Origin: Pseudomonadota bacterium
GTDB taxonomy: Bacteria; Desulfobacterota; Binatia; Binatales; Binataceae
Assembly: GCA_021323945.1 (NCBI GenBank)
Contig: JAJPKA010000020.1
Coordinates: 372,001 to 436,000, forward strand
DNA length: 64,000 nt
Reading direction: 5' to 3'
Positions 29,588 through 33,240 of the stretch are shown here, piece by piece. Below the pieces are notes generated by a model. The model searched no databases. It had not been told where the DNA came from and worked only from the letters and a program-made list of their open reading frames with translations. Position numbers and translations under genes: made by a program. Every line of letters begins with the position of its first letter. Positions within the stretch are counted from its first letter, which is position 1.

Positions 29588-32272
29588 TTACAGCAGCGAC
29601 GCCACCTTGGCGAGTGCTTCATTGAGCCGACTGGCGTCCCGGCCGCCAGCCTGGGCCAATTCCGGTCGTCCCCCACCAGCGCCGCCCACCACGGGTGCAA
29701 TTTGCTTGATGATATCGCCCGCCCTAATCCGCTTTGCCAGGTCGGGAGTCACCGCCACCAAGAGAAGAACCTTGCCGTCGCCCAAGTTCGAACCCAAAGC
29801 GACGACTGCGGACTGGTACTGCTGACGCAAGCGGTCGGCGATGGCTCTCAGTCCTGCCGCGTCAACTCCGTCTACCCGCCGGGTAATGACCTTGACGCCA
29901 CGCACCTCCTGCACCCTTTCACTGCCAACCGTCGGACTCTCGGCTGTGACAAGTTTCTGCTCTAGGGCGCGGAGCTTTCTTTCCAACTCCTTTTCGCGTG
30001 CGACAAGACGCTCCAACCGGACAATAGTCTCGGTATCTCGCGCGCCGAGTTGGCTGTCGATTTGGCGCAGAATCTGCTCGCGCCGGCGAATGCGCTCAAG
30101 CGCCCCCTCACCTGTCAGGGCCTCGATTCGACGGATTCCGGCAGCAACCCCCGTTTCGTTTTCAAGCTTGAACAGACCAATGTCGCCAGTGCGCCGGACA
30201 TGGGTGCCGCCGCATAGTTCGATCGAGAAATCGCCCATTCGAACGACGCGGACCCGATCACCATATTTATCGCCAAAGAATGCCAGCGCCCCAGCCTTTA
30301 TGGCCTCATCGTAGGGCATCTCTTCGACGGTAACATCCGCATTCTCACGAATGCGCGCATTGATCTCTTCTTCGATGGTTTCCAGGTCTTGCGGTGAAAC
30401 GGGACCTCGATGAGAGAAATCGAAACGCAGCCGTTCCGGCGCTACCAGCGAGCCAGCTTGATGCACCTGCCTGCCCAGAATCTCCCGCAAGGCGTAATGC
30501 AACAGATGAGTCGCTGAATGATTTAGCATCGCCGCGTCGCGTCGCGCCCGATCGATCCTCAAGTGAACGCGGCGTCCGCGTTCGAACTCGGCGGCATCAC
30601 CACGCAGCAGCCGGCCCAGGTGAACGATGGCGCCATTGTAGCGGCGCGTGTCAGTAACTTCGATTAGTCCTCCCTCCGCACTTTCGATAACTCCACGGTC
30701 GCCAATCTGGCCGCCACCTTCAGGATAAAAGGGGGTTTCGGCCGTAACAACGCTGATCTGGCCAGGCCCAGCCTGTGCGGTAATAATTTCAGAGTCAGCC
30801 TCATAAAGCGCGTAAAGGAAATGCGAGCGAGTGCCATCGCTGAGCCTAATGTCCGGGGCTGATGCCTCTTCTCGGCGTGCGCCTCGCGCCCGCTCGCGCT
30901 GATCCTGCATCAGACGATTGAACTCGTCGAGATCTACGATGATTCCGTCATCGCGCAGGACGTCCTGGGTCAGGTCGATCGGGAACCCGTAAGTGTCATA
31001 GAGCTTGAATGCAACTTGACCCGGAAAGAGGTTGGATCCGGAATCCCGAATCTTGCGTTTTTCCGACTGAAGGAACTCCAGGCCGCGTTCCAGCGTCTCA
31101 CCAAATTGGTGTTCCTCCTGAGTGATGACTTCCTTAATAACATCTGCCTGCTCCCGGAGCTCTGGGTATGCATCACTCATCGACCGGATTACTCCTTCCG
31201 CAACCATCGACAAAAATGGCTGCTGAACCGAGAGATAGCGGCCGTGTCGGGCGGCGCGCCGAATCAGTCTGCGCAGCACGTATTCCCTGTCGGTGTTGCC
31301 AGGCCGCACTCCGTCGACAATCAAGAAGCACATCGCTCTGGCGTGATCGGCGATGGCCCTGAACGAAACATCCAAACGCGCTTGAGTTGCTGCTTCCCCA
31401 CTGCCGGGCGCAAACCGCTGACCGTACCTGGGGCTGTGGTTGCCGAAAGTTGATGCGGCCAACTCGATGTGCGCGATGATAGTCTTGAAAACATCAATAT
31501 CGTAATTGCCGAGCAACTGACCGGTTTCGAAACCTTGCAAAACTGACGCGACCCGTTCCAGTCCGGTGCCGGTATCAACATGCTTCATCGGTAGTGGCGT
31601 CAGCTTGCCGCTCGTATCCCGGTTATACTGAATGAACACCAGGTTGCCGAGCTCGATAAAACGGGCACAACCGTCGACGTTGACGCCGCAGCTCTTGCCG
31701 CCGTGAGTGCAATGGGCCGAAGCTTCAGGACCGCGGTCAATATGAATTTCTGAGCAGGGTCCGCAGGGCCCCGTTTCACCCATTTCCCAGAAATTGTCCT
31801 TTTCGCCAAAACGCAGGACGCGCTCTTTAGGCAGAACCCCTAATTGGAGCCATAGCTGTTCGGCTTCTTGATCGTCCTGGAAGACGGTCACCCAGAGTCG
31901 CTCTCGCGGAATCTGCCAAATTCTGGTCACCAGCTCCCAGTGCCACTCGATCGCTTCGGCCTTGTAGTAGTCGCCGAAGGACCAATTCCCGAGCATCTCA
32001 AAAAAAGTGTGATGATAACTGTCTCGGCCCACCGCTTCGAGGTCATTGTGTTTGCCAGAAATGCGCAAACATTTTTGGCAGTCGGCGACGCGCGGCGAGG
32101 AAGGAGTGCGAATGCCCAAGAAATAGTCTTTGAATTGAACCATCCCAGCGTTGGTGAAAAGCAGGCTCGGATCGCCTTTAGGGATCAGGGAGGCCGACGG
32201 CACAATGGTGTGATTGTGGCCGGCAAAAAAATCGAGGAAAGATTGGCGGATCCGATTAGTTGTCCAACGCAT
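29588..32272 (-). CDS. alaS: alanyl-tRNA synthetase
   Basis: 894 aa from ATG 32272 (a GTG one codon earlier is also possible). Catalytic domain begins RQSFLDFFAGHNHTIVPSASLIP and continues with LLFTNAGMVQFKDYFLG; the editing domain has the zinc-binding HSATHLLHYALR and CGGTHVRRTGDIG; the C-Ala domain ends with the DGGxx-like GGAGGGRPELAQAGG. Charges tRNA-Ala with alanine and edits mischarged Ser and Gly. Full length for the family. It is downstream of the OsmC-like selenoprotein gene with a 77-base gap and upstream of phoH with 179 bases. Confidence 0.97.
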   Translation of the reverse strand: MRWTTNRIRQSFLDFFAGHNHTIVPSASLIPKGDPSLLFTNAGMVQFKDYFLGIRTPSSPRVADCQKCLRISGKHNDLEAVGRDSYHHTFFEMLGNWSFGDYYKAEAIEWHWELVTRIWQIPRERLWVTVFQDDQEAEQLWLQLGVLPKERVLRFGEKDNFWEMGETGPCGPCSEIHIDRGPEASAHCTHGGKSCGVNVDGCARFIELGNLVFIQYNRDTSGKLTPLPMKHVDTGTGLERVASVLQGFETGQLLGNYDIDVFKTIIAHIELAASTFGNHSPRYGQRFAPGSGEAATQARLDVSFRAIADHARAMCFLIVDGVRPGNTDREYVLRRLIRRAARHGRYLSVQQPFLSMVAEGVIRSMSDAYPELREQADVIKEVITQEEHQFGETLERGLEFLQSEKRKIRDSGSNLFPGQVAFKLYDTYGFPIDLTQDVLRDDGIIVDLDEFNRLMQDQRERARGARREEASAPDIRLSDGTRSHFLYALYEADSEIITAQAGPGQISVVTAETPFYPEGGGQIGDRGVIESAEGGLIEVTDTRRYNGAIVHLGRLLRGDAAEFERGRRVHLRIDRARRDAAMLNHSATHLLHYALREILGRQVHQAGSLVAPERLRFDFSHRGPVSPQDLETIEEEINARIRENADVTVEEMPYDEAIKAGALAFFGDKYGDRVRVVRMGDFSIELCGGTHVRRTGDIGLFKLENETGVAAGIRRIEALTGEGALERIRRREQILRQIDSQLGARDTETIVRLERLVAREKELERKLRALEQKLVTAESPTVGSERVQEVRGVKVITRRVDGVDAAGLRAIADRLRQQYQSAVVALGSNLGDGKVLLLVAVTPDLAKRIRAGDIIKQIAPVVGGAGGGRPELAQAGGRDASRLNEALAKVASLL

Positions 32273-32349
32273 CACTTAAATTTTATCGCATCGCTGGCCA
32301 AACGTGGACCTTGATATTGCATGAACCTCACTGGATGATCCGCGCAAGA

Positions 32350-32802
32350 TCAAGCCTCAGTCTCGTTGATCACCTTCAATTCAACTACAGTATCAGGGGT
32401 CGCGACCGCGACCGAACCGAACAGTGGTCAGCGCCTCTTGTAGGTAGCGACAAATTCTTCGGCTTGAGCTCGCGAAATCCCGCTAATCAGAAACTCCAGC
32501 CGTGCACGTACGAATACAGCAGGCCCTTCGCTGTGCGCCGCCGTGTCTATCACGCCTTCCATTGCAGCTTCGACCCATTTGAGCGGCGCGTTGGCCGCCC
32601 GCGCCAGCCTTTCGATCATCAGGGTGGCGCATCCGGTGATGCCAGCCAGGAACAACTCCGCCGGCCCCGGCGCCTCGCCAGGACCTTCATGTGCCGGGCT
32701 ATCATCGATGACAAAGTGATTGTGACGCGCCGTCCAGATGTGACGGCCAGGCAGGCCGCTACTGACAGTCCTCACCCGCGGACGAATGTAACGCTCTGGC
32801 AT
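32350..32802 (-). CDS. OsmC-like peroxiredoxin-related protein, probable selenoprotein (Sec at codon 125)
   Basis: 150 aa when an in-frame TGA at 32428-32430 is read as selenocysteine. Residues 1-124 are a recognisable OsmC fold with the first conserved cysteine at 58 (AGITGCATLMIERL). At the TGA, the family has its second redox Cys in a C-P motif; the frame continues without interruption as PLFGSVAVATPDTVVEL and ends with TGA at 32350-32352, giving the expected OsmC length. A hairpin with a 6-bp stem and GGTC loop lies 14 bases after the TGA. OsmC/Ohr proteins reduce organic hydroperoxides through a Cys pair. ATG 32802 is the start before the family homology. A truncated 124-aa form would lose the active site. 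Confidence 0.85.
32398..32413 (-). promoter_or_regulatory. SECIS-like hairpin downstream of the in-frame TGA
   Basis: On the mRNA strand, GGTCGC, loop GGTC, then GCGACC: a perfect six-base-pair stem with a guanosine-led apical loop. It begins 14 bases after the TGA, placing the loop 20 bases from it. This agrees with the published bacterial SECIS rules (short GC stem, small loop with G in the first two positions, loop 16-37 bases from the UGA). It lies inside the coding sequence, as bacterial SECIS elements do. Confidence 0.7.
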
Positions 32803-32877: not shown

Positions 32878-33240
32878 ATGATAGCGATCAAGCGGGCGTA
32901 CGACCCTCCCAGCCGGGCCGATGGAACACGTATCCTGGTGGACCGGATCTGGCCGCGCGGCCTTAAGAAGCAGGAGCTCCAGATAGACCAATGGATGCGC
33001 GACCTGGGGCCGAGCGACGAGCTCCGAAAGTTCTTCGGCCATGAGCCATCTCGATGGGATGAGTTTCGCAGCCGCTATCGTCAAGAGCTCAAACGCCCGG
33101 AGAAGGCAAAGCTTCTGAGAGAGCTGGTCCGGGTTGCTCGCCTGGGGCGTTTGACGCTGGTCTACGGCGCGAAAGATGAGGTACACAACCAGGCGGTCGT
33201 CCTAAAAGAATTCCTTGAGGAGATGCTAACTCGGGAGTAA
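32878..33240 (+). CDS. DUF488 family protein
   Basis: 120 aa. Typical DUF488 text: IKRAYDPPSRADGTRILVDRIWPRGLKK, FGHEPSRWDEFRSRYRQEL and LTLVYGAKDEVHNQAVVL. The strong AGGAGG before ATG 32878 sets the start. Function is not established; members are small alpha/beta proteins often near stress or nucleotide-related genes. It is divergent from the OsmC-like selenoprotein gene across a 75-base shared promoter region, so the two may be co-regulated. No catalytic residue can be proposed with confidence. Confidence 0.88.
   Translation: MIAIKRAYDPPSRADGTRILVDRIWPRGLKKQELQIDQWMRDLGPSDELRKFFGHEPSRWDEFRSRYRQELKRPEKAKLLRELVRVARLGRLTLVYGAKDEVHNQAVVLKEFLEEMLTRE

Follow-up and report, generated by a model that had tools for sequence, protein, structure and literature searches.

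The window, by which we mean the whole stretch of 64,000 nucleotides that was analysed, carries on its minus strand (32802-32350, stop codon included) an OsmC-family gene in which the in-frame TGA at codon 125 is almost certainly read as selenocysteine, with a probability that we put at about 0.97, and the gene product is then a selenoprotein. In the full explanation, which we hold to be very likely, the gene specifies a protein of 150 residues with the OsmC/Ohr fold, in which Sec125 would be inserted under the direction of a hairpin downstream of the UGA and would share with Cys58 a redox chemistry modelled on that of Ohr and OsmC. What the DNA itself shows is the reading frame with its OsmC homology, a UGA that is conserved, a hairpin that covaries and a genome with genes for Sec machinery. 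This is more than chance, since TGA occupies the codon in all 53 homologous loci of other assemblies, the published limits for a bacterial SECIS element hold in 53 of 55 family sequences as against 93 of the 1959 TGA triplets of the window, and the helix covaries. An initial annotation of the same DNA had called the gene a probable selenoprotein, a proposal that the conserved TGA, the covarying hairpin and the Sec machinery support.

The predicted protein and its relatives

The frame opens with ATG at 32802 and runs through 124 sense codons to the TGA at 32430-32428; past it, the same frame continues for 25 further codons to the TGA at 32352-32350 that terminates translation, as the initial annotation had described. 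The Pfam OsmC domain (PF02566) covers residues 40-132, spanning the in-frame TGA, and scores 46.2 bits against a cut-off of 27.5. The AlphaFold model of the 150-residue protein has a mean pLDDT of 92.4 and matches the OsmC/Ohr-fold structures 1lql (Z 15.4, rmsd 3.6, 142 residues) and 6mjn (Z 15.0, rmsd 2.6, 136 residues). The 33 rows of structure matches with Z above 10 are titled OsmC, Ohr, putative redox or osmotic stress protein, or hypothetical, and the matches below Z 10 are other folds. A score above the gathering cut-off together with this fold places the protein in the OsmC superfamily.

The two redox positions are well defined. Cys58 (TGC, 32631-32629), already noted as kept, is the first conserved cysteine, and in a profile of 36 family proteins it falls in the column of the first Cys of OsmC/Ohr proteins of solved structure. 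The same profile sets Sec125-Pro126 opposite CP[YV], the site of the second, resolving Cys, in each of the five such proteins for which an alignment was listed, which agrees with the earlier proposal that the TGA replaces the second conserved cysteine. Arg20, Glu49, Cys58 and Sec125 are invariant in all 36 of the aligned family proteins (54 are known).

The 53 homologous loci emerged when named genomes were scanned with the family alignment; each has TGA at the codon, and the protein segment that follows it is conserved. According to record titles, which are MAG labels and may carry binning errors, 21 of the loci belong to Chloroflexota including SAR202, 16 to Alphaproteobacteria and 4 to Actinomycetota, the remaining 12 being titled Binataceae, Deltaproteobacteria or Proteobacteria or bearing no taxon. 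Among 57 related genomes, the host genome included, ten carry the gene at an identity of at least 48%, all ten with the in-frame TGA; with the window's own gene set aside, this leaves nine of nine close orthologues, eight of which apparently lie on the same contigs as eight of the 12 Binataceae-type loci among the 53. The motif at the TGA is UPLYGS in the relatives and UPLFGS in the window. Other matches in the 57 genomes reach at most 34% identity (38% in one 60-residue stretch), and in these the TGA is absent. When 395 genomes of the phylum, a sample drawn from a larger group, were searched with a profile, the gene turned up in three, all from the window's family and all with TGA, and there were five further matches at 38.5 bits or less without a stop. 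Named genomes scanned with the single protein as query gave no confirmed relative, and tblastn against plasmids gave no match. The listed orthologues end in the same region by TGA, TAG or TAA at differing places, that of L055 running on for 14 codons after its match.

The peptide patterns that were used to find loci exclude the Sec residue, so that they would also have picked up a cysteine form with identical flanks. None was present among the 53 loci of named genomes, and no close cysteine form appeared in the searches of named genomes and relatives.

Proposed redox roles of Cys58 and Sec125

The function of the protein is most likely that of a hydroperoxide (or related) reductase of the Ohr/OsmC fold acting through a Cys58-Sec125 selenenylsulfide, a chemistry that we infer from these relatives. 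Cys58 would attack the hydroperoxide, or a related electrophile, in the manner of the N-terminal Cys of Ohr and OsmC; Sec125 would resolve the oxidised Cys58, giving the Cys58-Sec125 selenenylsulfide, and a dithiol donor, presumably of the lipoyl type, would reduce this bond as it does in Ohr and OsmC. Arg20 is aligned with the GR motif of Vibrio cholerae Ohr, and Glu49 aligns one residue off the glutamate of Ohr; these are the Ohr residues that we take to be catalytic. The peroxidase mechanism described for Ohr/OsmC places one Arg and one Glu beside the peroxidatic Cys, and re-reduction is ascribed there to a lipoyl-type dithiol (PMC8945050). As to the substrate, the chances that it is an organic hydroperoxide are about even.

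The assignment of the resolving role to Sec125 is somewhat favoured by analogy. The roles could be swapped, with Sec125 attacking the peroxide and Cys58 resolving, and this arrangement would suit both the lack of a cysteine form among the 53 loci and the fact that in selenoperoxidases Sec is usually the attacking residue. We nevertheless regard it as rather unlikely, as Cys58 is invariant in 36 of 36 proteins and as the N-terminal Cys of Ohr/OsmC is the peroxidatic one, the C-terminal Cys being resolving (PMC4069020).

Relation to the published UxxT selenoprotein

An OsmC-like selenoprotein with the motif UxxT was listed for the Sargasso Sea in 2005 (PMC1088965, Table 3) and is also listed in PMC2398784 and PMC9312934, and PMC7435645 gives OsmC-like among its listed selenoproteins with no motif. 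Table 1 of a 2026 inventory (PMC13188914) gives OsmC only as UxxT, and this inventory treats forms that differ in Sec position as separate subfamilies. The initial annotation had linked the window gene to OsmC-like selenoproteins of marine origin; such a family is indeed published, but the window's protein differs from it in carrying Sec at the second position and in its score. The model NF041052 (OsmC_like_Se), which we equate with the published family by its name and the UxxT motif, gives the window protein 33.7 bits and two other family members 16.3 and 20.5 bits, against a cut-off of 95. A search with this model of 16 genomes that bear a window-type gene recovered six members over the cut-off. 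These six genes (L103-L107 and L117) lie in five genomes, which carry the mirror-image family as well, and all six carry U as the first redox residue (UEMT in five, ULLT in one) and Cys as the second.

It is very improbable that the window protein is a member of the published family and by that already known. Both are OsmC selenoproteins, the 33.7-bit match is a weak resemblance, and the two profiles can be aligned (E 0.0003, probability 40), but in this very alignment Cys58 stands opposite the U of the UxxT family and Sec125 opposite its Cys. The score far under the cut-off and the first-position Sec of the members led us to reject membership in NF041052, and the presence of both kinds in five of 16 genomes likewise speaks against identity.

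In a tree of 80 rows each Sec group is single, with support of 90/81 for the window family and 98/98 for the UxxT clade. None of 200 bootstrap trees puts the Cys rows on one side of a branch, and therefore the two Sec groups stay apart. The UxxT group joins with three Cys rows (98/84), a join that unites long branches and could be an artefact. The tree includes 36 of the 54 family proteins, namely the window's and those of 35 of the 53 loci; L111, L122, L126, L128 and L131 were dropped, and L116, L129, L133, L134 and L136-L139 were not extracted. The protein of L082, from a record titled Thermoleophilia, sits on a long branch among Chloroflexota rows, a placement that hints at gene transfer or faulty binning.

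Decoding of the in-frame UGA

SelB and tRNA-Sec would decode UGA125 as selenocysteine, directed by a hairpin 15-30 nt downstream. The initial annotation had pointed to a SECIS-like hairpin of six base pairs beginning 14 bases after the TGA, and this stem is present (GGUCGC-GGUC-GCGACC, 32413-32398): 20 nt separate the UGA from the loop, which is of four nt and contains G, and the calculated energy is -9.6 kcal/mol. The first and last bases of the GGUC loop covary and act as a seventh pair. By the published bacterial SECIS limits (PMC13188914), as coded here with G-U pairs allowed, the window hairpin falls within range, and of the family sequences only L062 and L079 fall outside. Folding energy of the single sequence is unexceptional (z 0.07 in one run, -0.91 in another), so the hairpin alone would be weak evidence; the fold predicted for 33 nt of L082 departs from the family helix. 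Within the window neither Rfam, at the gathering score, nor ARAGORN gave a hit.

The stronger argument comes from comparison. Over 54 aligned sequences, 47 of them distinct, 99.4% of the cells of the seven-pair helix hold a pair, as against 28-78% in slid controls. Compared with shuffles, in which the relatedness of the sequences remains, changes on both sides occur in four of seven pairs (shuffled mean 2.1, one of 500 as high), double changes amount to 30 cells (mean 6.5, reached in 0 of 500), and the covariation score is 0.307 (0.109 when shuffled, again reached in 0 of 500). A weaker measure, the number of further pair types, gives 9 against 7.1, with 28 of 500 shuffles as high. The basal pair, formed by the third codon letters of Ser130 and Thr135, occurs as GC, AU, UA and CG, and these four types cannot stem from a single event. 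The pair that closes the loop lies at the third codon positions of Ala132 and Val133. Double changes are synonymous in 28 of the 30 cells, and the other two (pair 19/32, GC to AU) alter residues.

By default an in-frame TGA is a stop, and the unexceptional folding energy of the downstream RNA would suit a plain 124-residue OsmC protein, a pseudogene or a sequencing error. We reject these explanations, which have at best a very slight chance, on the grounds of conservation and covariation: in other assemblies TGA recurs at all 53 loci and is followed by conserved protein sequence, the hairpin covaries and the Pfam match crosses the codon. The alignment with homologues that had been proposed as a check gives Cys in the TGA column of the five solved OsmC/Ohr proteins listed. 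Decoding of the UGA in some other way, such as near-cognate readthrough or a Trp code, is less probable still, given the Cys at this column in solved relatives, the Sec genes of the genome and the gene's own end at TGA.

The in-frame UGA conserved in orthologues at the position of a redox Cys, the hairpin downstream of it within the published limits and the presence of selA, selB, selC and selD in the genome all mark the gene as that of a selenoprotein. That the lineage possesses Sec machinery had been assumed in the initial annotation, and the genome search found it: a tRNA-Sec with anticodon TCA (74.2 bits against a cut-off of 47 for RF01852, which a tRNA-Ser of the same genome also passes at 50.5 bits), SelA (572 bits), SelB (360 bits) and SelD (379 bits). 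The gene of this SelD (L101, G000:C1:158949-159872) contains one in-frame TGA close to the N-terminus, and the genome's SelD is for that reason likely to be a selenoprotein itself.

Within the set of relatives, tRNA-Sec was found in eight of the ten genomes that bear the gene (the two others, G001 and G011, both have SelA) and in 35 of the 47 that lack it, so that among relatives its almost equal frequency with and without the gene makes co-occurrence uninformative. The search among other gene-bearing genomes took 44 of 45, leaving out that of L090, and found tRNA-Sec in 37; the same threshold gave a signal in three of 14 named control genomes.

Gene neighbourhood

In nine loci alaS follows closely after the Sec-OsmC gene, namely in the window (alaS at 29588-32275), L047-L052, L054 and L055. 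The other neighbours in the window are a gene with SIS and GATase domains, taken for glmS, and a divergent DUF488 gene (32878-33240, plus strand), whose best Pfam model is the inactive DUF488-N3 subclade; no substrate is named by these neighbours. In up to 17 Chloroflexota loci a gene for a periplasmic-binding protein (Peripla_BP_2) lies downstream, and no partner gene common to all groups was found in the neighbourhoods.

In five loci of Chloroflexota/SAR202 (L066, L071, L075, L077 and L080) the next gene encodes a Peripla_BP_2 protein with an in-frame TGA in the motif CEVU. That of L075 scores 92.1 bits with Peripla_BP_2 and 39.3 bits with the BtuF model, under its cut-off of 234. A BtuF selenoprotein that binds cobalamin and has the motif CxxU is among the entries of the 2026 inventory (PMC13188914), so two selenoprotein genes may adjoin in these organisms.

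A probable subfamily with selenium at the second position

Our searches of openly licensed PMC papers turned up no description of an OsmC form with Sec at the second position, nor a paper that joins a selenoprotein with Binatota or SAR202. We think it quite probable that the genes represent an unlisted OsmC subfamily of about four phyla, in which Sec is seemingly obligate and selenium resolves rather than attacks, and that this subfamily and the UxxT family are a mirror pair that arose independently in one fold, sometimes in one genome. OsmC is absent from the main text of the deep-Sep paper (PMC12013277), which states that its own method may miss selenoproteins without Cys homologues. An overlooked Sec-second family would fit such a limit, and the family may have been missed where homology methods depend on Cys forms.

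What leads an enzyme to carry selenium at the attacking or the resolving position is, in our judgement, a standing question of selenium biochemistry. As both arrangements occur in one small fold, side by side in five of 16 genomes, a direct comparison becomes possible. The family further suggests that current inventories can miss selenoproteins that lack close Cys relatives, and it is a pointer to the use of selenium by Binatota and SAR202.

Comparison with known systems

With the Ohr/OsmC thiol peroxidases (TIGR03561, TIGR03562, PF02566) the window protein has the fold and the two redox positions in common, and the Arg of the GR motif in V. cholerae Ohr has its counterpart in Arg20. It differs from them in having Sec in place of the C-terminal Cys, and its scores are under the cut-offs of both Ohr (TIGR03561, 22.5 against 88.85 bits), to which it is not assigned, and OsmC (TIGR03562, 12.7 against 85.8 bits). 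The genome's own Cys-type OsmC paralogue (L043) shares the OsmC domain and has Cys at each position, but it is only 28% identical over residues 38-136 and falls into a separate, starred clade; its best NCBIfam match is the SACOL1771 family (51.7 bits, under the cut-off of 166.15). The UxxT selenoprotein of NF041052 likewise has the OsmC domain and an in-frame UGA, and its two conserved redox positions hold a Sec and a Cys. Its Sec comes first and its Cys second, whereas in the window family, which forms a separate clade, Cys comes first and Sec second.
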